Source: Pavlovales sp. CCMP2436 (taxonomy: Eukaryota; Haptophyta; Pavlovophyceae; Pavlovales). Taken from it: a stretch of 14,060 bases of DNA. The notes under the pieces are model-generated. The model did not search any database. It was given only the letters and a program-made list of their open reading frames with translations, and was not told where the DNA came from. This document shows, piece by piece, positions 1 through 14,060 of this stretch. Every line of letters starts with the position of its first letter. The first letter of the stretch is position 1. The stretch spans positions 26,327 through 40,386 of the forward strand of contig MU631441.1 of assembly GCA_026770615.1 (NCBI GenBank), written 5' to 3'. Position numbers and translations under genes: made by a program.

Positions 1-33
1 GGGGGGGGGGGGGGGGGGGGGGAGGAGGGGGGG
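1..33. repeat. G-homopolymer tract at window edge
   Basis: The window opens with 22 consecutive G, then A, GG, A and seven more G. It could form a G-quadruplex on this strand. It may also be an assembly or sequencing artefact at a contig edge. No telomeric repeat unit is visible. Confidence 0.7.
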
Positions 34-234
34 CGTTTACACGACTCCATTCGCTTCACCGCTTCTCTCTGTCCATATCTGCACGGTCTTGTCTGCGAGT
101 GAACGCAAGTCTCCTGCCGCACACTGCTGAGCCACAAATATATATGTAGCGCGTCGGAGCCTGCGTTGGAGCGCGAAGATCAGCTTGATGATTTGTCACA
201 CCGTCAGCCCGAACCCCCCCATCATTAATATTTG
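34..234. other. Unassigned stretch without a supported gene
   Basis: This is mixed-composition DNA between the G-tract and the microsatellite. I see no convincing coding sequence, RNA gene or repeat in it. The open frames that cross it owe their length to the adjacent CATA repeat. Confidence 0.4.
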
Positions 235-372
235 TATACATATATACATGTATACACACATTTATACATACATACATACATACATACATACATACGTACA
301 TACATATATATATATACATGTATACACACATTTATACATACATACATACATACACATATACATACATATATT
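235..372. repeat. (CATA)n microsatellite with an internal 70-bp duplication
   Basis: Runs of CATA are mixed with TATATA. The segment starting TATATACATGTATACACACA occurs at 241 and again at 311, so one 70-base unit is tandemly duplicated. Open frames across it give low-complexity Tyr/His/Ile/Cys peptides and are not genes. Confidence 0.9.
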
Positions 373-490
373 CAAAATAGTAGAATTTAATACATAATAC
401 ATAATATATATAATATATAAAGAATGAATTTAAATATAAGAAAATATAATACATCATATTAAATTATGATTATAAATAAAATTATTAATC
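373..490. other. AT-rich spacer
   Basis: About 120 bases are almost entirely A and T, with no gene, RNA or clear repeat unit. The composition switches abruptly to GC-rich at about 492, where the coding-like fragment begins. That switch suggests an insertion or recombination edge. Confidence 0.6.
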
Positions 491-494
491 ACGT

Positions 495-608
495 CAGCTC
501 AACCGCCTCGACGAGCGCGTCAGCGAAATGCACACCGAGGCGCAGAACTTCTTCGAGATGGCCAAGCAGATGCGTCAGGCCTCTGAGAGACAGGCGCGCT
601 GGTTTTGA
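495..608 (+). pseudogene. Orphan 3' coding fragment (coiled-coil-like tail)
   Basis: From the abrupt GC-rich edge the frame reads 37 residues and then TGA at 606-608. It starts QLNRLDERVSEMHTEAQNFF and ends QASERQARWF. The Glu/Gln/Met/Arg-rich spacing looks like the end of an amphipathic helix or coiled coil. There is no start codon and AT-rich DNA lies directly upstream, so this is a truncated 3' end of a gene, not a whole one. A diverged copy occurs near 10839-10900, where EVHTAIQN corresponds to EMHTEAQN here. The parent protein is not recognised. The fragment may be the terminus of a transposon ORF, with the RA repeat beyond it being the 3' untranslated part. Confidence 0.45.
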
Positions 609-807
609 ACTTAGTTTGTAGCCGCTGAATCCTGAATAGCCCGCTACAACGGTGACAACTTAGTGACGTGCTTCATGGGCGTGGACGGCCTGATAGGCGT
701 TCCGCTGACAGTAAAAAGTATAGACGGCGCCGGCCAAAAAAATGAGCGGGAGACGGTTGCACCACGACAAGGCGCTTGGTCGCGCTGCTACTGGCGCAAC
801 GCCTCGT
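525..807 (+). repeat. Dispersed repeat RA, copy 1
   Basis: This segment aligns by eye with 10839-11107 in the same orientation. Shared blocks include CCTGAATAGCCCGC, CAACGGTGACA, GTGACGTGCTTCATGGGC and GATAGGCGTTCCGCTG, plus a GAGACGG block and a GCGCAAC block. Small indels break any shared reading frame, for example a longer AAGTCACTTAAGAAGTACGC stretch in the other copy. It begins inside the orphan coding tail ending at 608, so the unit probably is the 3' end of a mobile or multicopy element. Confidence 0.75.
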
Positions 808-833
808 TACCAACAGAAAAGAAGCGGAAGGGA

Positions 834-990
834 GGCACTGGCAATGCCTCCCGCCCGTCGCTCTTCACAGAGGGATATTCAGCGGTTGGGACGGTATCCG
901 TGTGCTCTGCAAAGGTCCCTTGGCACAAGTATTTCTCAACGCTTGGGTCCGATGGAGACCTGTCAGGGGACGTAAGTACTTCGCATTTAG
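834..990 (+). repeat. Dispersed repeat RB, copy 1
   Basis: RB shares GACGGTATCCGTGTGCTCTG, TTTCTCAACGCTTGGGT and GGAGACCTGTCAGGGGAC with copies at 2936-3050 and 9541-9612, and with an inverted copy at 11661-11790. Copies 1 and 4 also share the flank with TCGCTCTTCACAGAGGGATA. Read on the minus strand, the copies give similar peptides (DPSVEKY, AEHTDTV and YPSVKSD here). RB may therefore descend from a coding segment in the reverse direction. Confidence 0.75.
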
Positions 991-1370
991 ACGTTATGAT
1001 AACTATCACTTCCGTGTTGGATCCAGGGCACACACATCTAGCTACAGTGCCTAGATGAACGTGTGCGTTGTTGTGGGGTGGGGCTGTGGCATCTGCTACG
1101 AGTTCGCCAGAAATATCGTCGTCTACCGCCATCCCTGCTGCGCCAGGACTGACGATGTCTGACGTCGGCCAAGTCAGTGAATGATCACTACTTGTTGATG
1201 AAACATAGTACCGCTGATAACTAGATGCAGATTAATGAGGCTAAGGTGTGTTTAGCTCACCTTAGGTGCAGCCCAGAACGCCCTCTGACACGCATCTATC
1301 GATACCTCTTGATATTTTTTCATTGAAAAGGAATCTTTATTTATTTAAACTTAGTATTTAGCCAGTAATG
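991..1370. other. Intergenic DNA with no recognised feature
   Basis: I see no gene with a convincing protein signature. The first part is mixed composition. From about 1310 it is AT-rich and leads into repeat RF. Confidence 0.4.
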
Positions 1371-1592
1371 TTAAATTAGTTACTGGTGAAGTTCTGAAGG
1401 ACCGAGGCTTTTTTTTTGCCTCTTGAGACCCTATTTTCCAAAGCTTAGCTCCGAAGCACAAAATAGAGGCCAATGGCATGGCAGTATGTGTACCCATCCC
1501 ATTAAATAGGTTTGGATACATAAAATCTTTCTCAGGGTTCTAGTCGAAACATGAGTTCTCAAGTGGCAAAGAAAATCCTCGACCCAGTAGAG
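1371..1592 (+). repeat. Dispersed repeat RF, copy 1
   Basis: It aligns with 2535-2758 over almost equal length (222 and 224 bases). Shared anchors in order are TTAAATTAGTTA, a T8-10 run, GAGACCCTAT, an AGCTC block, GGTTTG, TCTAG and CAGTAGAG. The copies have diverged substantially. No coding potential is seen, so it looks like an old non-autonomous element. Confidence 0.6.
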
Positions 1593-1656
1593 CCTGCTCA
1601 ATAGCTAATTAAATATTCATTAAATATGATCAGAATTCAAATGAAAGCCTATTGAA

Positions 1657-1823
1657 TACAGGGGGTCGCGGGTAATAAGAAACCATATCGTTAAAAGACT
1701 GAGTCTCGTTTGTTGTGCCCTTCAATAGCAATTTAAGATTTTTTAAAAAAAATGTATGTATTTTGCTAAGAAACTGAGCCTCAGGCTAAAATTCGCCATT
1801 CTTATTGCACGCGATCCCCTGTA
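1657..1823 (+). mobile_element. MITE copy 1 (TA-flanked, Tc1/mariner-like ends)
   Basis: This 167-base element begins TACAGGGGGTCGCGGGTAAT and ends in the near-exact reverse complement (ATTGCACGCGATCCCCTGTA). The terminal TA pair suggests a TA target site as used by Tc1/mariner transposases. The interior is AT-rich and shares TATGTA-TTTTGCTAAGAAACTGAGCC with the copies at 3396 and 10483. It has no ORF of its own, so it is non-autonomous. Ends with one or two mismatches between arms indicate moderate age. Confidence 0.85.
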
Positions 1824-2086
1824 GGCAGATTCCAGAAGGTACCAGTAGGCACAAGTCAGTGGGCGCACTGGGCGGCGCGGGAAGCGAGCGTCACCCTCGC
1901 TTATAGCATCATGCGTGGCTGAATTGCAGGTGATACCGCTCATTGAGTCTGTCTGCGGTGGCAAGCGGCCTCTCGGCGAGCGGCTCAGGCTCGAGCGGCA
2001 GCAACGTAGGGTCCGTGTCTACCATGCTGATTTTTTTTATTTTTTTGCAGTGAATTAATCGGTCATAGCCTTTCAAATTGGATTTT
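1824..2086. other. Intergenic DNA with no recognised feature
   Basis: GC-rich at first, then T-rich near 2030-2046. No frame gives a recognisable protein and no RNA gene is visible. It separates the MITE from the element at 2087. Confidence 0.4.
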
Positions 2087-2498
2087 TATCCTATTGAATA
2101 GGACGCATTCGGCACGCTGGAGCCGACGAACCGCGCGGCGGGGACCCATGGTCACCGCACATCGCCATGGACGGTATGCGCCGCGTGGATATCCAGGAAT
2201 CAATCAGATTGATGATGCAGCCTCTCGTTGATCCTTTGTGAGCTGTAATAATTAAAATTCAAAAAAATGAGCGAAATTATAGCGCATGGGGCCCGAATTC
2301 GGGCACATGGGCGCGCACGCGCCAATAGCGTGTGTTGCACGCCGCGCCGGGGATACTGGTAGCTTGCCACCTCTTCTGGGCGTTTGAAAAAGCCTAGGTA
2401 CCCTCAGATGTTTCCGACTCGTCCCCTAGTGCAGCCCTAAGGACACTTAGTTACCATCTTATTGGCCATTCCGGATGAATATCCAATTGAATAGGATA
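2087..2498. mobile_element. Possible non-autonomous element with about 20-bp terminal inverted repeats
   Basis: The left end reads TATCCTATTGAATAGGA. The reverse complement of the right end reads TATCCTATTCAATTGGA, and similarity continues weakly for a few more bases. Both ends finish in TA, which would again fit a TA target site. The ends are themselves nearly palindromic. The 412-base interior is GC-rich with no recognised protein. It contains a perfect 14-base palindrome, GCCCGAATTCGGGC, at 2291-2304. Only one copy is in the window, so its element status is an inference. Confidence 0.45.
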
Positions 2499-2534
2499 TC
2501 AGCATTTAATTAAATTAAAAATTTATTTAAGGGT

Positions 2535-2758
2535 TTAAATTAGTTATTGGAGGTTCAGAGAAGGGTCGGTAATTTTTTTTTTCGCTGAGACCCTATGTTT
2601 CAAGGTTCAGCTCGGGAGAACGAAATATGGACGGACTCACGGCGACCATGCGGCTGCGTCCTTAAGCGGATCTAATAGAATTGGGTACAGAAAAGCGAGT
2701 GCCTGCCTTTTGAATGGGTTTGAATAAGATCTGTCGCAGGGGTCTAGCCACAGTAGAG
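2535..2758 (+). repeat. Dispersed repeat RF, copy 2
   Basis: Partner of 1371-1592, with the same anchors in the same order and orientation. Its right edge lies about 50 bases before the broken gene fragment at 2808. Confidence 0.6.
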
Positions 2759-2807
2759 ATCTCGATGGTTATTTGCCAATAATAATATAATTGGATATTA
2801 TTTATTT

Positions 2808-3098
2808 AACGATATCGGTCTCGACCTCGTTATGTGCAGGTTGTTGAGGTCCGACCAAATTGTCGACGGCGTGGTCGTCGACGACCTCCGCCTCGAGCTC
2901 CAACGGCGCGTATCTACTCACGCTAGCGTTCTCAGGGGAGACGGTATCCGTGTGCTCTGCTAAGGTTCCATGATCCCTGTGTTTTCTCAACGCGTGGGTT
3001 ATGTGGAGACCTGTCAGGGGACAGACGTATTCCTAGATATTTGCACGCTCATGGCGAGCAGCTGACTGGTTGAGGTTCTTGCTGCCATCTTTGACACG
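2808..3098 (-). pseudogene. Broken copy of the 4194 gene, interrupted by repeat RB
   Basis: On the minus strand, two blocks match the protein encoded at 4194-4916. The upstream block (about 3098-3051) reads KDGSKNLNQSAARHE against KGGVKNLNQAATCQA. The downstream block (2915-2808) reads RYAPLELEAEVVDDHAVDN, then HNEVETDIV, against KYASRVLDEEVVDNDAVDN and HNEVEADIV (residues 34-69 of the intact protein). In the intact gene the blocks are nearly adjacent. Here about 110-130 bases of RB lie between them. The fragment lacks the gene's ends and stops right after the conserved block. This is a pseudogene unless RB is spliced out as an intron and further exons exist elsewhere, which I cannot show. 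Confidence 0.7.
2936..3050 (+). repeat. Dispersed repeat RB, copy 2 (inserted in the pseudogene)
   Basis: It carries ACGGTATCCGTGTGCTCTGC, TTTTCTCAACGCGTGGGTT, GGAGACCTGTCAGGGGACA and ACGTATTCCTAGATATTTGC. The last block is shared with copy 3 at 9541. It lies between two conserved blocks of a gene that are nearly contiguous at 4194. Confidence 0.75.
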
Positions 3099-3395
3099 GT
3101 GCGCGAGCTTGACCTTGCGAGGCAGGTTATGTCTGGTCGTAACCGGAGAGCATTACCGCGCGCACTGACGGCGGTGAGTTTTACGACCAGAGTTGGCTAC
3201 TACCCAGTGCGCCGCGCTCGGTGCTGCACGCCGGGTATAAGGCCATCGCGCGCACGTGAGCAGGCAGCCATCGTGCAACCAGTGTTTATCCAAGCGGCGA
3301 AACGAAATCTGCACTGTGAAAGCTGACAAATGTTACAACTTACATTTTTTTAATGCGATGTACTTGGCCGGGAGAGTCACATTTACCTAGGAGGG
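3099..3395. other. Stretch without a supported gene
   Basis: A 75-codon frame runs 3099-3326 on the plus strand, but it starts opposite the pseudogene and its product has no recognisable motif. No RNA gene is seen. Nothing here can be assigned a function. Confidence 0.4.
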
Positions 3396-3572
3396 GAGGG
3401 GGTGTCGCGGGCGCAATAAGAAGGGCGAATTTTGAGCTTAAGGTTGAGCTTCTTAGCAAATTACATATACAAACAGTGCTTAAATATGCTTAAGTTACAT
3501 ACAAACAATGTAAAAAAACGAGGCTCTGCGCTTCTTAACGCTACGGCTTTTTATCGCCCGCGACACCCTGTA
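3396..3572 (-). mobile_element. MITE copy 2, inverted relative to the others
   Basis: The interior is the reverse complement of the other copies, with GAGCTTCTTAGCAAATTACA followed by a second ACATACAAAC block. The right end is TTATCGCCCGCGACACCCTGTA in two parts and retains the terminal TA. The left end reads GGGGGTGTCGCGGGCG, and its outermost TACA has been lost into a G-rich run. It is the most diverged of the three copies and carries a different central GTGTCGC where the others have GATCGC. Confidence 0.75.
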
Positions 3573-4193
3573 GGGAATTGGGGCACTACCTGGTTTCACG
3601 GTGGGATTAGAATTACATTAATATTGGGATTATAAAGCCCACGGGAGTTCCGATCCGCCAAAAGGATAATGAGAGCTCAGGGATGATGACATGAGTTGAA
3701 ACTCCGCGAAAGTTTCTACCCCTCCTATATGAGACTTATAACGATAATACATAAAAACGAAATAAAAATGGTGGCTTGTATTATTATCAGTAGCAAGAAC
3801 TATACTGCAATGAATGCAGAGGTACGCTGGCTGGCTGTCTTACTGCAGGGGGCTTTTTTATATCATTATTAGTGATAGTAGTATCAGTATTATTATTATT
3901 ATTAATAATAATAATAATAATAATTCCAGATTACTATAACTAGTATTACTATTACTAGTATTACTGATTACGTACACCGCAATAAAAATAGGATTCGTAG
4001 ATCAGCTTTCCCAGTGCAGATTGTGTTACTGTACGCCGCAAGAAGGGTCTGAGCTGTGACACAGTATGGCTGCGTGTCTAAGCTCCCTCGTGTGCGTACG
4101 TAGCGGCGGGTGCTACGCACGCATCTTCAGCTCCGGGTCGCAAAACTCGCTGCCGTCGGTGCGCAGTCGGTTCCTTCTTGGAACGACCAGGGC
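3573..4193. other. Intergenic region upstream of the 4194 ORF, microsatellite-bearing
   Basis: AT-rich DNA with trinucleotide repeats at 3860-3965, then a GC-richer stretch from about 4020. The 4194 frame stays open upstream to 4110 but has no ATG there, so either it starts at 4194 or an earlier exon joins it. No promoter element can be named with confidence. Confidence 0.4.
3888..3919. repeat. (TTA)n/(TAA)n perfect palindrome
   Basis: Five to six TTA units run directly into TAA units around a central TTAA, giving a perfect 32-base inverted repeat that could extrude as a cruciform. Less regular TACTA/TAGTA repeats follow to about 3965. Confidence 0.85.
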
Positions 4194-5349: not shown

Positions 5350-8300
5350 TCAACGACTGCCGTGGCTCGTCGCGGTCCCGCTGCCGCTTATGCGGCCCGG
5401 GCTGGCGAGCTGCTCGTCGATGCTCGGCACTGCGAGGGCCGTGAACACGTCGGCGCGCAGCCCCTGCCAGACGTCGGCCCAGTCGACCGGTGCCTCGACG
5501 AGGCAGCGCATCCTCTCGATGGTCATGACGACACGCTGGCTCTTGCCCCTGCCGAGGCTCTGCATGTTGCCCTTGATCGCGTGCAGCAGCCGCCAGGTGC
5601 GGCTCCAGTCGACCCAGGCGTCCTCCCCCTCGATGCGCGCGAGCAGCTCGCAGACCTCGGTGGCCAGCGCGTCGTGCAGCTGCTCGGCCGAGAAGACCAC
5701 GTTGTCGGTGGCACGCACCTCGCGCGCGAACGAGCCGAAGCGACGCAGCCACTGCGGCACAATGGCGCGCAGCAGCCCCTCCCGCTGCAGGGGATCCTTG
5801 GCGAGCGAGCCGTGCGCGCGGCTCGAGTAGAGCTCTAAGTCCGCGTCCGAGTCGTTGGCCGAGCGAACGAGCAGCAGCGTGCGCGCCTCCTGGTCGGCGG
5901 TGAGCATGCCGCGCACGCGCTCCAGGTGCTCGGAGCCCGAGACGGTGCGCAACCCGTCGTCCACATCCAAGTTTTCGTCCGAGAGCACGATGAAGATGCA
6001 CTCGGGGTGCTGGCGCACCTCCTCAGCCAACAGCGCGTCGAAGCCGTCGATCTCCTCGCTCGTGGAGCCCCACAGCGTGACGTTTTCGGGAGGCACGCCA
6101 AGAATGTTAAACATGGAGCGCATGATGATGCGCTGCACGGGCGCGTCATCGATCCCGATGGCGCGCACGTGTCTCGGCATCACAAAGGAGATGATCTGCT
6201 CGTCGCCCACGTGCTCATGCGCAGTGCACTTGAACTCGAAGACGGTGCCCTGCTCGCTGAAGGCGATCGAGCACGTGCCATCCATCGCCTCGGCGCACTT
6301 GGTCATGATCCAGGCGCCGTCGCCACTCGAGACCGAGTCGGTCGGGTGCAGGCGCACGCCCTTCTTGAAGATGCAGCCCGTATCGTCAAGCGCCAGCAGC
6401 TTGGCGTGGCCCTCGCCAGGCCTGTTGAAGACACGCAGCGTGAGCTGGCCCTGCACGTGGTCCAGCTCGGTGCGCACCTCGCCGCCGTGCTCGCCGTACT
6501 TGCATGCGTTGGAGATAGCGTTGCGGTGGATATGGAAAACCAACTTGGGGTCGAGCTCGAGCACGGGAAAGGGCTCCACCAACGTGCGCATCTCAAAGCG
6601 CTCGGCGTGGCCCGCACAGCGCACCAGCACGTTGCGCAGATTGATTGGCTCTGGCCTCGGCGTGTAGGCGCCGTGGAGCACGTCACGCGCCATCGCCTGC
6701 GCGAGCACGGTGCTGAGCGTGTGCTGCAGCATGCCGTGTAGCTCGCCCAGCCTGGAGGAGAAGGCTCGGTCGTACTCGCCCAAGACGATGGCGCCGGACG
6801 AGATACCGTGCTTGTGCAGCTCCTCGAGCGAGGTGAGTGCGCTCATCGCCGAGAGCATCCCGTTCTTCACCTCGTGCCGCGTGAAGCGGTTCGCCTCCTC
6901 GTCCTTCTGACGACTGACGGTCTCGGAAATCAGACGCTTCTCCGCAGTCTCACGCAGCAAGGCCTTCTCCGCGTTGTGCCGCGAGATGCGGTCGGATATG
7001 TCGCGGATCACCATCACCAGCGCCGAACCGTCGGGCAGCGCGGACGCGTGCGCTTCGCAGCCGAGCGTGCGCAGGCCCGTGCGCTCCATGCGGTACTCGC
7101 GCAGGAACACCGTGGGCCCGCCGCTCGCGTCAGGCTTGATTTTCATCGATTCATTCCACGCGGTGTTGACCATGTGCAAAAAGAAGTATTCGTGCGGCGT
7201 CGTCAAAGACTCTTCTGTGCACTCTGTGTAGTTGTGCGTGGTCGTGGACGTGAAGCCCACGGCTGAGATGCCGATCAGCTCGTGCAGCGATCCCGAGGCC
7301 GTCGTCGAGACGAGGCCGTTGGGGTCTGACCGGGTTGAGATGACCAGCACGTCCGAGGAGTTCTCCCACACGATGCTCATCTGCGCCACAAACCATTCGC
7401 TAAGCTCGAGTTCGTAGAGTACAGGTACAGACTCGTAGATCTCGCTCAGCACGATGGCGTAGCTCATCTTGGCGGCCACGTCCACGATGCAGTCGAGCAC
7501 GAACGGCCACGCCGCAGGTACATGACGGCAACTTGCGTCGCCGCGCTGGCATGGATCTAAAACGTCGGCCAGCCACGCGCCAAAGTAGTCGAGCACGAAG
7601 GCCGTCCACATCACTGCGCACGAAGCGATGAGCCGGCGCGCCGAGATCCAGCGGCGGTACGCATCCCGCTTCTGCGGCGAGCCGCCCTTGGGCCAGCCTG
7701 CAGGTTGCTCGAGCGTGTACGAAAACTGGAAGGGGGGGGGGGGGTAAGAGAGGAGGCAGAGGTCGATGTGAGCGCGCGGATGTGAGCACGCGCGGGTAGC
7801 AGCGCGAGTGGGTTTAGCAGGCCGCACCTTGATATAGACGCGGCGTAAAAGGTCCGCGTAAAGGATGAACGAGATGGTCATCACAATGCCCCAGCTGACC
7901 GGGCCAACGGTAAAGGGCAGTATGTAGCCGCAGATGGTGCTGCCGCCCTGCGTCAGCCCGAAGGCGATAGGCCGCGCGAAGTCGTAGGAGTCGATGGCCT
8001 CGACGGTGAATGACATGACAAAGGCCAGCGTCGTCCATTCGCACCATCGGACGAGGTGCACGCGACAGTGCGTGAAGGGATCGATCAGTATCGGCATCGG
8101 CGCGAGGGCCATCAATAGGTTCGTACAGCACGCGATCCAGTGCACGGTGAGCATCATCGTGCCCACGCCAGTGATGGCCGACGGGCGCACCAGCTTCTCC
8201 AGCCCTCGGATGAGGAGCGCCGTGAAGAGGATTAACGCCGCAATCCCCGCGGCGAGGCGCTCCGACGGCATAAGTGCCTGCTTTTCGCCGGTCGCAAAGG

Positions 8301-8391
8301 CGAACGCGAGCAGCGTCGCGTAGCAAACCAGCGCGCCGGCCGCGATGCAGTTCGCCGTACCCGGCCTGTCGATTGCGATCGGGGCCAGCAT
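5350..8391 (-). CDS. Histidine kinase rhodopsin: rhodopsin-PAS-HK-receiver-HPt (979 aa)
   Basis: Likely a membrane photoreceptor that drives a His-Asp phosphorelay. The coding sequence is 8391-7828 joined to 7725-5350. I start at the first ATG, 8391, because upstream codons in the frame lack ATG. Eight hydrophobic helices fill residues 14-290. Helix 3 has R115-W-C-E118-W119, matching the Arg/counterion/Trp pattern of type I rhodopsins, with Glu as counterion. Helix 6 has W228, and helix 7 has D270-V-A-A-K274, the retinal Schiff-base lysine. A PAS-like domain (about 299-434) ends in VIRDISDR. The DHp His is H472 (RHEVKNG). The ATPase has an N-box with N590 and N594 (HRNAISNACKYG), an atypical G1 region (NRPGEGH) and GDGAWI. 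The receiver has D714, D715, phospho-acceptor D771 (LSDENLDVDDG), S810 and K831. The HPt has H903 (HAIKGNMQSLG). Family knowledge: algal rhodopsin kinases such as Chlamydomonas HKR1 have a similar front end, but that protein ends in a cyclase, not an HPt. An output regulator must lie elsewhere. Confidence 0.9.
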   Translation of the reverse strand: MLAPIAIDRPGTANCIAAGALVCYATLLAFAFATGEKQALMPSERLAAGIAALILFTALLIRGLEKLVRPSAITGVGTMMLTVHWIACCTNLLMALAPMPILIDPFTHCRVHLVRWCEWTTLAFVMSFTVEAIDSYDFARPIAFGLTQGGSTICGYILPFTVGPVSWGIVMTISFILYADLLRRVYIKVRPAKPTRAATRACSHPRAHIDLCLLSYPPPPFQFSYTLEQPAGWPKGGSPQKRDAYRRWISARRLIASCAVMWTAFVLDYFGAWLADVLDPCQRGDASCRHVPAAWPFVLDCIVDVAAKMSYAIVLSEIYESVPVLYELELSEWFVAQMSIVWENSSDVLVISTRSDPNGLVSTTASGSLHELIGISAVGFTSTTTHNYTECTEESLTTPHEYFFLHMVNTAWNESMKIKPDASGGPTVFLREYRMERTGLRTLGCEAHASALPDGSALVMVIRDISDRISRHNAEKALLRETAEKRLISETVSRQKDEEANRFTRHEVKNGMLSAMSALTSLEELHKHGISSGAIVLGEYDRAFSSRLGELHGMLQHTLSTVLAQAMARDVLHGAYTPRPEPINLRNVLVRCAGHAERFEMRTLVEPFPVLELDPKLVFHIHRNAISNACKYGEHGGEVRTELDHVQGQLTLRVFNRPGEGHAKLLALDDTGCIFKKGVRLHPTDSVSSGDGAWIMTKCAEAMDGTCSIAFSEQGTVFEFKCTAHEHVGDEQIISFVMPRHVRAIGIDDAPVQRIIMRSMFNILGVPPENVTLWGSTSEEIDGFDALLAEEVRQHPECIFIVLSDENLDVDDGLRTVSGSEHLERVRGMLTADQEARTLLLVRSANDSDADLELYSSRAHGSLAKDPLQREGLLRAIVPQWLRRFGSFAREVRATDNVVFSAEQLHDALATEVCELLARIEGEDAWVDWSRTWRLLHAIKGNMQSLGRGKSQRVVMTIERMRCLVEAPVDWADVWQGLRADVFTALAVPSIDEQLASPGRISGSGTATSHGSR
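7726..7827 (-). other. Phase-0 GT-AG intron of 102 bases in the rhodopsin kinase gene
   Basis: On the minus strand the donor is AAG/GTGCGG and the acceptor is a poly-C tract followed by TTCCAG/TTTTCG. The interval is exactly 34 codons and contains no stop, so the frame stays open through it. It translates to a Pro/Arg/His-rich, low-complexity peptide. Removing it joins helix 5 (ending RRVYIK) directly to FSYTLEQ. Splicing is therefore inferred from the splice signals and from peptide quality. Confidence 0.8.
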
Positions 8392-8581
8392 GATGAGGCG
8401 CGGAAACGGCGACGCGGCTGTGAGCAGCGGGGTAACGAAGGATGCGGGCACGAACGAGCTGTGGCGATACTGTTGTGCGAGCGCGAGACCCAAAGCGCCG
8501 TCGACTCTGCCCACCACTTATCACACAGCAACCGAGGGGGAACGAATCTCTGAACGAATGTGAATCGGTTCGGCTGACGAC
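8392..8581 (-). promoter_or_regulatory. 5' flank of the rhodopsin kinase gene
   Basis: The frame stays open to 8517 but contains no ATG there. It is either 5' untranslated sequence or the end of an upstream exon (a CTGCTCACAG string resembles a 3' splice site). The base at -3 of the chosen ATG is A, favourable for eukaryotic initiation. No TATA box or named motif stands out. Confidence 0.3.
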
Positions 8582-8944: not shown

Positions 8945-9074
8945 ACGATATCATTTTTTTGTCAGTGATGGGCCTTCAGCGCACAAGCGCAGCTGGAGGT
9001 ACCTGCGGGCACGGCGGATTCACTCGCGAGAGTGACGTCGTCATGAACCGACGATGACGGGTGTCGAGCGGAAT
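8945..9074 (+). repeat. Dispersed repeat RD, copy 1 (decayed coding tail)
   Basis: It shares long blocks with 11482-11614, including CAGCTGGAGGTACCTG, GGCACGGCGG, GAGTGACGTCGT, ATGAACCGACGA and TCGAGCGGAATA. In the other copy a frame reads FVNDGPTAEW and then LEVPAGTAGSLSRVTSL to a stop. Here FVSDGPSA matches but a one-base deletion shifts the frame before the LEVPAGT part. This is consistent with the 3' end of a multicopy protein gene, now broken. Confidence 0.65.
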
Positions 9075-9233
9075 AAATTATAAAATATCAGAGATAGGTA
9101 TACAAAAAATGTCGAGCGCTAATGCGCAGCTCGCCCAACCGCCAGGGGCGGTAACCTCCAGCCCCTGGTGTAGTCATAGGCGGCGGGGTGACTCAATAAT
9201 CCTCCACTTATCTTCTTTAGTGTTAGATGGTTA

Positions 9234-9347
9234 CCTAACACTGAGTGTGTGTTAGTTCTAACTTCGCACTCGCAACAGCGAACATACCCTCGACCGGCCG
9301 GGGCCTTACCTAAAACACACTCAAAAGGGCCGAGTGTTAGGAAAACG
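9234..9347 (+). repeat. Repeat RC module 1, with CTAACAC/GTGTTAG motifs
   Basis: It begins CCTAACACTGAGTGTGTGTT and ends AAAAGGGC...GAAAACG. It aligns throughout with module 2, exactly 400 bases downstream (9634). GTGTTAG at 9220, CTAACAC at 9235 and GTGTTAG at 9249 could pair in alternative hairpins. Confidence 0.7.
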
Positions 9348-9540
9348 CCGCTTTCTAAAACATAATATATACAAATAAAATCTTGATGAAAATCTTGATT
9401 AAAGCACCAGGAGCAAATTTACGGGGAGCCATCGAAATCTCTCTGCGAGCAGCCACATAGAGTATTTAATTCCATGGACCTTCTTTGTGGCTGGTTCGCA
9501 GCAGCCTGCTCGTTGGCTGGACACCTAACACTCATTGATC
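9348..9540. other. Spacer between RC module 1 and RB copy 3
   Basis: AT-rich near 9355-9405, where the right inverted-repeat arm lies, then mixed composition. A further CTAACAC occurs at 9525-9531. No gene is seen. Confidence 0.4.
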
Positions 9541-9612
9541 CGAGTGTTTCTCAACACTTGGGTTCGGTGGAGACCTGTCAGGGGACGGACGTATTTCTAG
9601 ATATTTACACTC
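9541..9612 (+). repeat. Dispersed repeat RB, copy 3 (partial)
   Basis: It retains the right half of RB: GTTTCTCAACACTTGGGTT, GGAGACCTGTCAGGGGACGG and ACGTATTTCTAGATATTTAC. The GACGGTATCCG half is absent. It sits between the two RC modules. Confidence 0.7.
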
Positions 9613-9633
9613 AGGTGGCTGACATCCTGGACT

Positions 9634-9742
9634 CCTAACACTGAGTGTGTGTTAGATTCAACCTCACACACCCAGCAGCTAACACGTGCTCGGACGGCTG
9701 GGCCCCCACCTAACACACAACCAAAAGGGCTTGCCGAAAACG
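9634..9742 (+). repeat. Repeat RC module 2, with CTAACAC/GTGTTAG motifs
   Basis: Partner of 9234-9347. The first 22 bases are identical and the remainder alternates identical blocks with substitutions. Extra CTAACAC motifs occur at 9679 and 9710. Confidence 0.7.
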
Positions 9743-10057
9743 TTACAGTTAGTTATACTATCACACACTAAGATAACTCCTAGCACTCCTATCTGTGAAA
9801 GTTTCTAGTTAAACGTCCGTCCCCAATACTCCCATCTGTGCATAATATGCCTTCCGGGGCAATGGCGTTCATAAGGGCTGGCAGTTCAGGCTTTCCTATA
9901 TTTTGAGCGTGTTTATAGTTTCTAAAGCAAAATCAGGCAACGGCGAGTGATCCTATATATATATATATATAATTCAGCGTGGAAGTGCCCTCCGCGCCTT
10001 GGACCGCCGCTGTCTGCAGCCACCAAGCGAAACAGGTCCGAACTTAAGGAAATACCG
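9743..10057. other. Intergenic stretch with a short TA microsatellite
   Basis: No gene is supported. A (TA)9 run lies at about 9954-9971. Two similar strings, CTCCTATCTGTG and CTCCCATCTGTG, lie near 9786 and 9828 and look like a small local duplication. Confidence 0.5.
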
Positions 10058-10324
10058 ATGCCGGGTATGGTTCCCGTAATCGTTACGTTATGTTATGACG
10101 CCTCTTCTACCGCCTGTGGCGCAGTCTCTGCGTCCAGGAGGCCCCGGGTGTCAGCGTCTGAGCGTCACTCTGTTGAGTTTCAGCGTCACCTTGCAGTGAT
10201 ACCAAAACGCCGACTAAGCTCCGAAGCAGGCGATTTCGTTTCGGGTTTGGTTGAAAATATGTTTCACTGCGGTGTGTCGCCCCACGCAGCGACGCAGTCC
10301 ACATTGCGCCGCATGACAGTGTAA
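10058..10324 (+). CDS. Doubtful hypothetical protein (88 aa)
   Basis: A plus-strand frame starts ATGCCGGGTATGG and runs to a stop at 10322-10324. The product (beginning MPGMVPVIVTLCYDA) has no recognisable motif, signal peptide or membrane segment. Codon use is not clearly different from chance in a mixed-composition region. The opposite strand also stays open in places. It is listed only because nothing else occupies this stretch. It could equally be non-coding. Confidence 0.15.
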   Translation: MPGMVPVIVTLCYDASSTACGAVSASRRPRVSASERHSVEFQRHLAVIPKRRLSSEAGDFVSGLVENMFHCGVSPHAATQSTLRRMTV

Positions 10325-10482
10325 GTCATCGGGTACATAGCCCATTGCAACGCCGAAACATGCCTGCAGATGCCATTTGCGAGATGGAAGGTCGTCGGGC
10401 CGAGGGCTGTCAAATTTCAAATCGAGACACCCGCCCGCCTCATCCCACGGTGGTTATCACTAAACGGGTTTTTGTGGCGGCA

Positions 10483-10653
10483 TACAGGGGATCGCGGGCA
10501 ATAAGAAACTATCGTGTTATGAAATTGAGCCTTGTTTTTTTGCCCATCAATAGTAATTTTTAGCCAAAAGTTAATAATTGTTTGTATGTAATTTGCTAAG
10601 AAACTCAGCCTCAGCTCAAAAAGCGCCGTTCTTATTGCCCGCGATCCCCTGTA
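10483..10653 (+). mobile_element. MITE copy 3 (best preserved)
   Basis: This 171-base element has perfect 25-base terminal inverted repeats. The left end is TACAGGGGATCGCGGGCAAT followed by AAGAA, and the right end is its exact reverse complement. The outermost TA at each side fits a TA target-site duplication. The interior carries TTTGTATGTAATTTGCTAAG and matches copies 1 (same orientation) and 2 (inverted). Perfect arms suggest the most recent insertion of the three. There is no ORF of its own. Confidence 0.92.
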
Positions 10654-10662
10654 TCAATCACC

Positions 10663-10685
10663 GGGGAGGGGGGGAGGGGGGGGGG
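10663..10685. repeat. G-rich tract
   Basis: Runs of 4, 7 and 10 G separated by single A bases follow ten bases after the MITE. It may form a G-quadruplex. C-rich runs follow at about 10776-10796. Confidence 0.8.
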
Positions 10686-10838
10686 TACAGCGCAGCCCGC
10701 CATACATAGTACCCTTCCCCCCTAATGGCCAATTACCTGTTGGTTTCCCACCCATGACGGTGGCCACATCACTGCCCCTCTCCCCTCCCCCTCCCACACG
10801 TGCACGCCCATCGATCCTCAGTCAGAAAAAACGGCGTC
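10686..10838. other. Pyrimidine-rich spacer with no gene
   Basis: CCCTTCCCCCC and CCCCTCTCCCCTCCCCC tracts dominate. Nothing coding or structured is recognised. Confidence 0.4.
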
Positions 10839-11107
10839 GAAGTTCACACCGCAATCCAAAATAACCCGCCGCACCAGAAGCTCAAGCAACGGCGAGGCAA
10901 CTCAATTTTGGCACTTAGTTTGCAACCGCTGATATAATCCTGAATAGCCCGCAACAACGGTGACACCTCAGTGACGTGCTTCATGGGCACGGACGGCCCG
11001 ATAGGCGTTCCGCTGGTAAAGTCACTTAAGAAGTACGCAGACGGCCGGCCGAAAAATGAGCTGGAGACGGCAGTGGTCGCGCCGCTACAGGCGCAACACC
11101 GCGTTGC
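10839..11107 (+). repeat. Dispersed repeat RA, copy 2
   Basis: It matches 525-807 in the same orientation. Its left part still resembles the coding tail of copy 1 (EVHTAIQN against EMHTEAQN) but no longer ends at the same stop. Similarity ends abruptly at about 11107, after GCGCAACACCGCGTT. Confidence 0.75.
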
Positions 11108-11295
11108 AAAACTCGGAGGGACAGCTTGGCTACCCAAAGGGTGTGGCATGCCTCTTTGCTCGAGGCAAGGTGCACCTTTCCCATGGCATGTGCTATCTTA
11201 ATCAGGAGTTTACGTTCCTGGGCCTGCCACTTGCCGTTAGTGGTTAGGAGGTGCCCCAGGTATTCATAAATTTTGTCCTTTGGCGTCTTGGGCAC
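11108..11295 (-). pseudogene. Reverse-transcriptase C-terminal scrap of a non-LTR retrotransposon
   Basis: The minus-strand frame reads KDKIYEYLGHLLTTNGKWQ, then a basic helix (ERKLLIKIAHAMGKVHL) and LWVAKLSLRVLQ. The Y-x-YLG followed by a short turn and a Gly-x-W is the usual end of the palm/start of the thumb in LINE reverse transcriptases (established family pattern). The catalytic YxDD box is not present in the window on this strand. The fragment runs into repeat RA at about 11107 with no proper end. It lies opposite in direction to the retrotransposon at 11821 and so belongs to a different insertion. Confidence 0.6.
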
Positions 11296-11481
11296 CTCTA
11301 TGTGTGGGGAGTTTGCATCCCTTGATGGTAGGCAGACGCAGGCTTTCTGCGTAAGCGAGGACCAGACTATTTACCATTTTCATGAACGTGGGCGGCTGGC
11401 GGGACGAGGGCGACAGCGGCACAAGGACGACGGCGGCGACGAAGAGGAGTTGGAGTGGACCTGGGCGCGTTCAGGAACATT
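11296..11481. other. Spacer with an Asp/Glu-rich plus-strand frame
   Basis: The plus-strand frame here reads KDDGGDEEELEWTWARSG and runs into the RD repeat. It may be the upstream part of the same lost protein. No family is recognised. Confidence 0.35.
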
Positions 11482-11614
11482 ACGATATATTTTTTGTCAA
11501 TGATGGCCCTACAGCTGAATGGATGCAGCTGGAGGTACCTGCTGGCACGGCGGGTTCACTCTCCAGAGTGACGTCGTTATGAACCGACGACGATGAGGGG
11601 TCTCGAGCGGAATA
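11482..11614 (+). repeat. Dispersed repeat RD, copy 2 (coding tail intact to its stop)
   Basis: The frame reads FVNDGPTAEWMQLEVPAGT, then AGSLSRVTSL and TGA at about 11579. The acidic frame upstream lies in another register, so this copy is frameshifted too, close to the T-run at 11490. The partner is 8945-9074. Confidence 0.65.
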
Positions 11615-11660
11615 CCTTATATATTATTGCTGCATAGTTAAACGTCCGCCTCCCCGGGAG

Positions 11661-11790
11661 GCTCACACTGGACCCAAGTGTTGAAAAATACTCAGATCCA
11701 GGGTTTCCACCCCGGGCACACGAATACCGTCTCCACCGCTAAATATCCCTCTGTGAAGAGCGACAGGCAGGAGGCATCATTGCAAGTGCC
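11661..11790 (-). repeat. Dispersed repeat RB, copy 4 (inverted)
   Basis: Reverse complement of copy 1 at 834-990, including the stretch corresponding to TCGCTCTTCACAGAGGGATA and TTCAACACTTGGGTCC. It differs by an inserted CCGGGGTGGAAACCC segment in the middle. Confidence 0.75.
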
Positions 11791-12689
11791 CATGACGTAG
11801 CGTCAATACAACCACTTTATATGGGAGCATCAGACTTACCTGATGATTTCCTGTCCACGATGCTTACAGCAATAGTAGAGGCCACGCGCCTTCGCTGCAC
11901 AATAGGGCCCCATGTAGCAAGAGAACGCTTGTGCGCCCCCCTGAACGCGATGGCCTGGTCTGGTGGACCCGCGTGCCCAAAACGCGGGCGAAAAAGTATC
12001 AGCCATGCTGCGCCTTCTCACCTCACCCGTAGAATCCGCAACGCACGCCCTCGCGGCACATGAATCGAGTATCGCCCAAAACGGACCCGCGAGGCAAGCC
12101 AAGGCAAAAACGATGCCAACCGCAAGGGGAGCGATCAAAAGTCATTCCGAAGCACCCCAGGGGGAAGAAAATGGGATATATTCGAGAACTATGCATGCCT
12201 GCAAATAACACCTATGGGTGAGCTCGCCCCTGCCCTACTATGGCCAGCCCTAGGTGCCACCCGCCGCGCAAAACCCGAAGTGGCTTCGGTCACCCTAGCA
12301 TCAATGAGCGCCTGTCGTGTACTAAACTTGGCAAAACTGCGCACCGCAAACATAGCCCCCACTTTAATGACACAGAAAGACAATTGACAGCCATAAGTGC
12401 AGCCGAAGAAGACATATTAAGGACATGCGGCAGCGCTATAAGGGACACGGTCATAGCTCTTCAAAATGCCCTACCGATGCATGCAAACACGGCTGCAGTA
12501 ACAAAATTGCAGCCAAGACCCTGTTCGCACAGGAATAAGGCCAACATTTAGGCGCTTACACCCCGAGCAGCTGGAAATATTACGGGAAATCCTGCCCGCG
12601 CTCACGTCGGCATTATGCGGACCTATGTGCTTCCGGTTCGTCACACGCCACACAGCACTCATACATGCACTCAAACACCAACTACCGAC

Positions 12690-13201
12690 AGCGGAGAAAC
12701 CACAATTGTGCACCCCGGTTCATTTATCAAACCAGATGGAAACGGCAAGGCTCGAGCAGCCGGTGCGGCGTGTTTTTACGTACTCCCATCACACCACATC
12801 CGCGGCACGACACATGCCCCAAAGGCACATATCCTCACCTGCACATTCTCAGGTGATCAACCAGTTGTCAACGCAGAATGCAATGCGGTCTCACTTGCCT
12901 TACAAGCACTGACTCACGAGCAAGAGCTATTCATCGGATGGGACCATGCCACAGGCGTAAAACGCCTAGACTGGCACAGACGACACCTAGACCGCAACCC
13001 CCTACCACACGGGTTAGGAGATCTCACGAGCTATGATGCAAACCCTCACTTCTACCGCCTACTTAGCCTCAAACACCGTAACGAGGCGCACGGACGCTAC
13101 AGGAACGCGGCTCACACTGCGGCTCATACCAAATCGGATGATGAAGTAGCCAGAATTCTACATACACCGGGAGCGGTACGTCACGATGACGCCTCGAGAG
13201 C
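12690..13201 (+). pseudogene. RNase H-like domain of the retrotransposon
   Basis: The frame reads VHPGSFIKPDGNGKARAAGA, CFYVL, then VVNAECNAVSLALQAL and LFIGWDHATGVKRLD. This follows the RNase H layout of strand 1-3, the Glu helix and the second Asp. Candidate catalytic residues are D at codon 12735 (PDGNG), E at 12876 (NAEC) and D at 12942 (GWDHATG). VHPGS resembles a decayed YTDGS box, so the first Asp may actually be lost. The later segment AAHTAAHTKSDDE could correspond to the KVKAHTG loop. A frame shift at about 13200 leads into the tail. Confidence 0.55.
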
Positions 13202-13204
13202 TAG

Positions 13205-14060
13205 AATAGTGACAGCAAAGGCGCTAAAGAAAGTGACCCGGCTCTTCATCTCCACACACGAGACGACAACTGGCGCAGCCAGGCTGATTTGCCTCCTCAC
13301 CTCCAACCCCCGGCCGTCATAAAACTCGCGCAGAACGCAATGAGCGACTGGGGCTCAAAGGCAGTAGCAGTACACAGAGAAGCCGCCACAGTACAGCTCA
13401 CAAAAAACACGCTCACGGCCCATTGCTGGATGTGATGATGTCTCCTGGCAATAGCGGCCACTGCGACAGAAGACATCATCACATCCAACCAACGAGTAGC
13501 ACGCCATGCGCTAATAGACAGAGTTGCGAGGGAACGCCTAGAGAAGAGAGGCCCCGTCAAACATGCCCCAGGCATAGGTAGAATGGCCAATGTAGAAGCC
13601 ACGTGGACAAAAGAGAGCACGATGGCTCTGCGCCTCCCACGAGTTAGAGGCAAACAGCGACCCACGGAAATGTACACCGAACACATGGCCAGATTGTTAC
13701 TCGGATCATCATACCGCCACAATGCCGAGTAGGCAGCAGAATTCCCGGCAATGGCCATCACTACAATTACCATTGACGGAAAGTCCAAAACAATGGACCT
13801 CGCCTGTCCCCTATGCAAAGCACCTAACTCACAAGACACAAAATACCACCTATACCACGAGTGCTCGTCAACGAAAAAGCACCGCCACGACCTCCACCGC
13901 TCCCTCTGCAAGGAACTGGCCCCGCGCCTGGGACCCGCAAACTCAAAATCAATGGCGAGACACAAGATATCTCGACCGGACTACTTCACCGGAAGGGTAG
14001 GATTAAGTGTCAAAGAAGAGCTCATAAAGAAAGACGTCGACACCGGTGACGCACCCAAGC
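13205..14060 (+). pseudogene. C-terminal zinc-motif region of the retrotransposon
   Basis: A single frame runs to the window end, broken by TGA TGA at 13433-13438 and TAG at 13730-13732. It opens with LHLHTRDDNWRSQADLPPHL and later contains MALRLPRVRGKQRPTEMYTE and LLLGSSYRHNAE. At 13805-13864 it has a C-x2-C-x10-H-x4-C motif (CPLC...HLYHEC), the kind of zinc-binding end found downstream of the RNase H or reverse transcriptase in many LINEs. The frame is still open at 14060, so the true end lies outside. A 222-codon open frame on the opposite strand is a shadow. Confidence 0.65.

Follow-up and report, generated by a model that had tools for sequence, protein, structure and literature searches.

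The window analysed here is a 14,060-base stretch of contig MU631441.1 from the haptophyte Pavlovales sp. CCMP2436 (class Pavlovophyceae), and its gene at positions 5350 to 8391 likely encodes a histidine kinase rhodopsin (HKR), in which a rhodopsin-family membrane domain, a kinase, a receiver and a likely histidine-phosphotransfer (HPt) domain form a predicted single-chain relay from light to phosphate. Along the chain, an extra membrane helix (TM0) and a seven-helix rhodopsin carrying K274 are followed by a PAS-like domain, a DHp domain with H472, an ATPase, a receiver with D771 and a C-terminal four-helix bundle with H903. The gene is real: its two exons, spliced and translated (Table 1), give a chain identical to the public protein P0001 (979 amino acids), which is entered as "hypothetical protein T492DRAFT_613137 [Pavlovales sp. 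CCMP2436]". A preliminary description of this DNA, made from the letters alone, had placed R115, E118, W119, D270, K274, H472, D771 and H903 in this order in one chain; all are correct in the numbering of the spliced chain and are conserved among relatives. Taken whole, that description is partly supported, its architecture being right and its light control and phosphate route being what we infer from that architecture.

The minus strand, which the preliminary description does not name, carries an open frame from 5350 to 8517, within which an ATG at 8391 opens 1013 codons, 34 of them belonging to an in-frame intron that the database model P0001 leaves out; in the alignment, an insert of this size is lacking at the same place in P0003 and in two diatom-type rows. 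Third-position GC in the coding exons was 0.872, and overall GC was 0.46 for bases 1-4000 and 0.53 for bases 9001-14060. Like the later ones, the first protein search scored only the 7993 to 7996 candidates with the most words in common. At E <= 0.001 it found 94 proteins (0 to 1.8e-28), counting the window's own, and many of the other 93 matched over 80-97% of length. From these we chose 41 near-full-length matches with the rhodopsin part for an alignment (A1), a favourable set of rows on which the profile, the NCBIfam and Pfam scans of relatives and the list of invariant positions all rest; these 41 relatives align end to end, with their parts in the same order. Residue counts cover every one of the 94 first-search rows, the window's own protein among them, with gapped rows omitted at each position. 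E118, K274, H472, D771 and H903 were all occupied in 57 rows, 43 of which have exactly E, K, H, D and H, and when H903 is set aside, 67 of the 70 rows with the other four positions occupied have exactly these residues.

A frame open by chance, or mis-joined and not one gene, might be suspected in GC-rich DNA whose two strands both carry long, overlapping frames, but this alternative is refuted by the 93 other matching proteins, by the common order of parts in the 41 near-full-length relatives and by P0003 with all parts in one chain; residue conservation and the match to the public protein likewise rule it out. Separate membrane and kinase genes are unlikely for the family, since P0003, an MMETSP entry, has every part in one chain, with rhodopsin and histidine kinase standing together there as in the window protein.

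Table 1. Features of the rhodopsin kinase gene, in window positions (RhoPDE, rhodopsin phosphodiesterase; TM, transmembrane helix)
Feature	Residues and motifs	Positions	Strand	Details or basis
Whole gene	T492DRAFT_613137, 979 aa	5350..8391	-	exon 1 8391-7828, exon 2 7725-5350, stop 5352-5350
Intron		7726..7827	-	102 bases, in-frame, GT..AG (GTGCGG..TTCCAG), long C run ahead of AG
TM0, extra N-terminal membrane helix	12-34	8290..8358	-	model helix; hydropathy window 10-37; RhoPDE alignment
Rhodopsin TM1-7	42-290	7420..8268	-	profile matches, fold, K274; intron inside span
Conserved motif	R115-W-C-E118-W119	8049-8035	-	
Conserved residue	W228	7608-7606	-	
Schiff-base motif	D270-V-A-A-K274	7482-7468	-	
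PAS-like domain	314-430	7000..7350	-	model topology; LOV-histidine kinase fold matches
DHp, two helices	455-538; R-H472-E-V-K-N, H472 at 6876-6874	6676..6927	-	model, conservation
HATPase_c domain	547-689; N box R-N-A-I-S-N594; G2-like G-D-G-A-W; G1 box N622-R-P-G	6223..6651	-	Pfam
Receiver	708-851; D714-D715, D771 (5979-5977), S810, K831	5737..6168	-	model alpha/beta alternation, conservation
HPt-like four-helix bundle	868-952; L-H903-A-I-K-G, H903 at 5583-5581	5434..5688	-	models, conservation

Membrane domain, linker and kinase core

Profile and fold both support placing the membrane domain in the rhodopsin family, as had been proposed from its motifs. The profile of relatives matched bestrhodopsin and rhodopsin phosphodiesterase, with bestrhodopsin (7pl9) the best among solved structures (E 1e-7) and K274 aligned with the lysine of its D-V-V-M-K motif; the profile was needed for this match, as a single-sequence search of the PDB gave one irrelevant match (E 0.8). 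The structure prediction suggested in the preliminary description yielded a seven-helix rhodopsin fold with K274 in the last helix, and the best structural match of the modelled membrane part was the 8-TM rhodopsin phosphodiesterase, in an alignment that starts at residue 5 and so includes TM0. Eight membrane helices are predicted in total, and therefore both ends of the chain would lie inside the cell. The Schiff-base lysine K274 is kept in 82 of 82 rows, haptophytes and diatoms among them, alongside R115 (76/76), E118 (73/76), W119 (75/77) and W228 (77/78), and residue 270 is acidic in 80 of 81 rows (D in 56, E in 24).

It is highly improbable that this part of the chain descends from a rhodopsin but has lost light sensing and responds to another cue, with kinase output unchanged. 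Two results favour such a sensor: Bac_rhodopsin is listed for one of the 41 relatives (0.0012; Pfam, E <= 0.1, as for all family counts in these relatives) and not for the other 40, and the model shares 9-16% sequence identity with the listed solved rhodopsins. A retinal-free sensor, however, would have little cause to retain the lysine, which is invariant at 274, and the counts for R115, W119, W228 and the acidic residue at 270 argue in the same direction.

In the model, TM7 is joined to the PAS-like domain by one unbroken helix (residues 261-310), and the strands and helices over 314-430 are compatible with PAS, a fold that Pfam listed in one of the 41 relatives as PAS_4. The best whole-chain Foldseek matches were histidine kinases and phytochromes. 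Those to the LOV-histidine kinase 8a7h (406 columns, root-mean-square deviation (rmsd) 27.3) and to the LOV-PAS-HK construct 6ph4 (438 columns, rmsd 20.4) have deviations so large that they back the kinds and order of domains, not domain placement. With that reading of the matches, model and fold search agree with the PAS-like domain and following DHp-ATPase core of the preliminary description. In the DHp domain, H472 and E473 are found in 94 of 94 rows and N476 in 93. The ATPase is the only domain of the window protein above its Pfam cut-off (HATPase_c, 1.6e-6, 29 bits vs 26.4); it is listed for 39 of the 41 relatives and keeps its N box, with N594 in 92 of 93 rows. In an NCBIfam scan the matches of the 41 relatives were partial and fell mostly on bacterial histidine kinases (best 1.2e-6); for the window protein none came near its cut-off.

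Receiver, C-terminal bundle and the predicted relay

The receiver and its predicted phospho-acceptor D771 hold up in the model, where D771 closes the third strand, and in the near-invariance of D715 (88/88), D771 (87/88), S810 (88/89) and K831 (88/89); D714 is kept in 85 of 88 rows. Response_reg was listed neither for the window protein (Pfam, E <= 10) nor for any of the 41 relatives, and we therefore name this domain by fold and motif.

HPt domains carry an L-H-x-x-K-G motif located on the second helix, and in the models both H903 and the K-G pair stand on the second helix of the four-helix bundle. H903 is kept in 60 of 74 rows, K906 in 70 of 74 and G907 in 71 of 73; the alignment behind the HPt model drew chiefly on rows having an L-H-x-x-K-G-like motif, and no conservation is quoted from it. 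That the bundle is an HPt domain, as first proposed, is plausible but weak: the motif and its position stand, but the Pfam Hpt score of the window protein falls under the cut-off and the fold matches do not discriminate. In view of that score we call the domain HPt-like; Hpt was listed for one of the 41 relatives. The Pfam check recommended in the preliminary description was borne out for HATPase_c and not for Hpt or Response_reg, with Bac_rhodopsin found in the single relative mentioned above, and the label "hypothetical" may be due to a family nearly invisible to Pfam.

One relative, P0003 (MMETSP1466), has after this a second HPt-like stretch of more canonical form (A-H-R-C-K-G..G-C-L-G), and the protein carries a precomputed Pfam Hpt entry. 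It would be unusual for one chain to hold two such domains.

In the relay that we propose, retinal would form a Schiff base with K274, and D270, perhaps together with E118, would be its acidic partner. Absorption of light would shift TM7, the signal would run along the continuous helix via the PAS-like domain to the DHp domain, and the autophosphorylation of H472 from ATP would change. Phosphate would pass from H472 to D771 in the receiver and on to H903 in the HPt-like bundle, both fused into the chain, before leaving it for a separate response regulator. Our guess, with a slight lean and by analogy with the 2c-Cyclops, is that light turns the relay down. The protein has the structural features of histidine kinase rhodopsins that were tested, the G1 box excepted.

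Several results weigh against a complete relay of this kind. Some database relatives stop before the receiver, the pelagophyte P0101 showed no receiver or HPt motif in a pattern scan, E118 is absent from P0022, P0043 and P0090, and P0032 has N in place of D771. For the bundle, the Pfam Hpt score in the window protein is 12.7 bits vs a cut-off of 24.6, and a fold search with the isolated bundle was not discriminating: a plant HPt protein and unrelated four-helix bundles came out level. A, Q, L, F or T stands in place of H903 in 14 of 74 rows (P0005, P0017, P0020, P0042, P0051, P0054, P0063, P0067, P0071, P0076, P0077, P0084, P0085 and P0093, the last possibly misaligned at this position). The G1 box (N622 at 6424-6426) is atypical as well, with Asn replacing Asp in 92 of 93 rows and the box reading N-x-P-G in 87 of 93, its assignment being by position; the change looks like a conserved, unexplained alteration of the ATP site. 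The likelihoods that we attach to the alternatives overlap with that of the preferred reading and are not meant to add up to a whole.

The results on the bundle bear on a serious though unlikely alternative, which shares the preferred reading as far as D771: a rhodopsin-histidine kinase-receiver whose HPt does not work, the bundle being a structural or docking cap and the phosphate on D771 going to a separate HPt or tuning the kinase. Histidine is nevertheless the commonest residue at 903, on the second helix and within L-H-x-x-K-G, and the order kinase, receiver, HPt is the usual one for tripartite kinases. The cap would account for the low Hpt score, the undiscriminating fold search and the rows lacking the histidine, 11 of which (of 14) retain both K906 and G907 and so suggest a role for the bundle beyond the histidine. 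The further HPt-like stretch at the C-terminus of P0003 also fits it, as does the separate HPT protein described for Ostreococcus in passages of two papers (PMC4343026, PMC12704426). The last relay step may possibly have been lost in some lineages, judging from the aligned rows.

The G1 box raises a different alternative: the core could be a pseudokinase, or act chiefly as a phosphatase, and light would control the removal of phosphate from a partner instead of autophosphorylation. We consider this quite unlikely. The Asn at the G1 place, the N-x-P-G there, the G2 box G-D-G-A-W and the H-E-x-x-N motif retained in the DHp domain, which is compatible with phosphatase action, are all points in its favour; the HATPase_c match over cut-off, the conserved N594 and the near-invariance of H472 and D771 count against it.

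Distribution, significance and the rest of the window

Named matches in the first search were haptophytes and diatoms, and a later search added one pelagophyte. The named relatives comprise Seminavis robusta (two, P0020 and P0070, the former without the HPt histidine), Fistulifera solaris, Cylindrotheca fusiformis, Thalassiosira profunda, Cyclostephanos tholiformis (two), Mayamaea pseudoterrestris, Emiliania huxleyi (partial) and Pelagophyceae sp. CCMP2097, and MMETSP entries include MMETSP1466, "Core.." and "Dact.."; a third protein search, with 12 haptophyte-type rows, added three more (P0117-P0119). No green alga was found among the protein-search matches with a readable organism name. A quick, midpoint-rooted tree of 52 of 116 proteins, which shows grouping and not direction, placed the window protein in a nine-row set with Emiliania (Shimodaira-Hasegawa-like approximate likelihood ratio test, SH-aLRT, 100), the pelagophyte in a four-row set (99) and the tree's named diatoms in a 39-row set (99).

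One distant relative, P0115 (999 amino acids), has R-W-C-E-F, D-V-V-L-K and a DHp-like R-H-T-L-K-N replacing R-H-E-V-K-N, together with a precomputed PF18143 domain; a pattern scan found neither a receiver nor an HPt motif in it. A viral origin was considered and rejected: a scan of viral_contigs matched patterns in 126 stretches, 0 of which encoded a relative, and the top viral structure matches were mostly named histidine kinases.

The apparently new points are its occurrence in haptophytes, diatoms and one pelagophyte, an HPt-like domain fused to the chain, a PAS-like domain as linker and the unusual G1 box. Among the open PMC matches listed, no title or abstract start described a rhodopsin-histidine kinase from haptophytes or from diatoms; subscription papers, preprints and supplements lay outside that scope, and a printed account may exist. 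A 2009 review of phototaxis evolution enters the haptophyte photopigment as a question mark; it mentions that Diacronema and Pavlova have eyespots and that one of the Pavlovales shows phototaxis (PMC2781859). The Pavlovales gene is a concrete, testable candidate for that photopigment. Diatom photoreceptors named in passages of a 2021 paper are cryptochromes, aureochromes, heliorhodopsins, G-protein-coupled-receptor-type rhodopsin-like proteins and phytochromes (PMC8413402). If diatoms and haptophytes share a conserved rhodopsin kinase, the two-component signalling of these major marine primary producers would gain a light input at the membrane, and optogenetics a single-chain rhodopsin relay. 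We hold in even balance the broader proposition that these proteins form a photoreceptor family, widespread but unrecognised, that spans haptophytes, diatoms and at least one pelagophyte and was missed because Pfam detects hardly anything in it beyond the ATPase, with a whole His-Asp-His relay in one rhodopsin chain that feeds separate regulators; ocean phytoplankton would then have in this family a main source of light input, which would also supply the candidate haptophyte photopigment, and the loss of the HPt histidine would mark a rewired last step.

Elsewhere in the window, no tRNA was found, and nine other frames had no Pfam match at E <= 0.1. Two plus-strand frames, at 12615-13322 and 13751-14059, resemble decayed pieces of a non-LTR (long terminal repeat) retrotransposon, in which Pfam found nothing; we take their E-C-N-A-V..A-L to be RNase H-like and their C-x2-C..H..C to be a knuckle. 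The window starts with a G-rich run (1-33), and a long degenerate ATAC/TATACATA array lies at 236-420.

Comparison with known systems

Bestrhodopsin, the best sequence-profile match among solved structures, consists of rhodopsin domains fused to a bestrophin channel and has no kinase. Tripartite hybrid histidine kinases of the ArcB/BarA type have the DHp-ATPase-receiver-HPt order in one chain, which is the usual order and is the same as in the Pavlovales protein. Compared with that type, the Pavlovales sensor is of the rhodopsin type, Pfam does not list the receiver and scores the HPt below cut-off, and the G1 box is atypical.

The rhodopsin phosphodiesterase of Salpingoeca rosetta is the best structural match of the Pavlovales membrane part, TM0 included, but its effector is a phosphodiesterase whereas that of the Pavlovales protein is a two-component kinase. 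Its Glu164, Asp292 and Lys296, as given in part of PMC7644710, likely correspond to E118, D270 and K274, the first because of the alignment at R-Y-A-E-W and the other two because of the same four-residue spacing in the last helix.

Cryptophyte HKRs likewise combine a rhodopsin with a histidine kinase, in a comparison made by description. For Guillardia theta, passages of one paper report two of three clade C molecules with a kinase domain as predicted HKRs (PMC7714340), and a survey of modular rhodopsins tables GtRh4-8 as HisK-RR (PMC7693036). HPt is not mentioned in the descriptions of these proteins in those passages, whereas the Pavlovales protein has an HPt-like domain.

The 2c-Cyclops (Cr2c-Cyclop1 and Vc2c-Cyclop1) share with the Pavlovales protein an 8-TM rhodopsin, two cytosolic ends (as predicted here), a kinase and a receiver, and the sections of PMC6284317 that describe them report mutants supporting phosphoryl transfer to the receiver. 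In Cr2c-Cyclop1, mutants of the retinal lysine, the DHp histidine, the G box and the receiver aspartate led to a model of phosphoryl transfer in the dark, with light inhibiting the cyclase most likely through blocking that transfer (PMC6284317). These chains are 2549 and 2210 amino acids long in the same source, whereas the Pavlovales chain has 979 and ends 27 residues past the HPt-like bundle; the green-algal cyclase type is ruled out, as Pfam lists no cyclase family in the window protein or the 41 relatives.

The green-algal HKRs, Chlamydomonas COP5/HKR1 and Ostreococcus Ot-HKR/Rhod-HK, likewise have an N-terminal rhodopsin, a histidine kinase, an ATPase and a receiver in one chain, according to the portions of PMC7693036 and PMC12704426 that describe them. 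For Mamiellales, a figure names Rhod, HiskA, HATPase and REC as the conserved domains of Rhod-HK, and HPT is a separate gene (PMC12704426, PMC4343026); the term "HPT" has 0 occurrences in the main text of the survey PMC7693036. Passages of PMC4343026 and PMC12704426 propose that the Ostreococcus rhodopsin kinase reaches the response regulator TOC1 via that separate HPT protein. The likeness to algal HKRs drawn in the preliminary description is right in kind, but without a listed cyclase family and with the HPt-like domain fused where in Ostreococcus it is separate. Compared by description, the Pavlovales protein adds a PAS-like domain before the kinase and an HPt-like domain after the receiver, and appears to be a variant of the histidine kinase rhodopsins with the phosphotransfer domain fused on and no cyclase.

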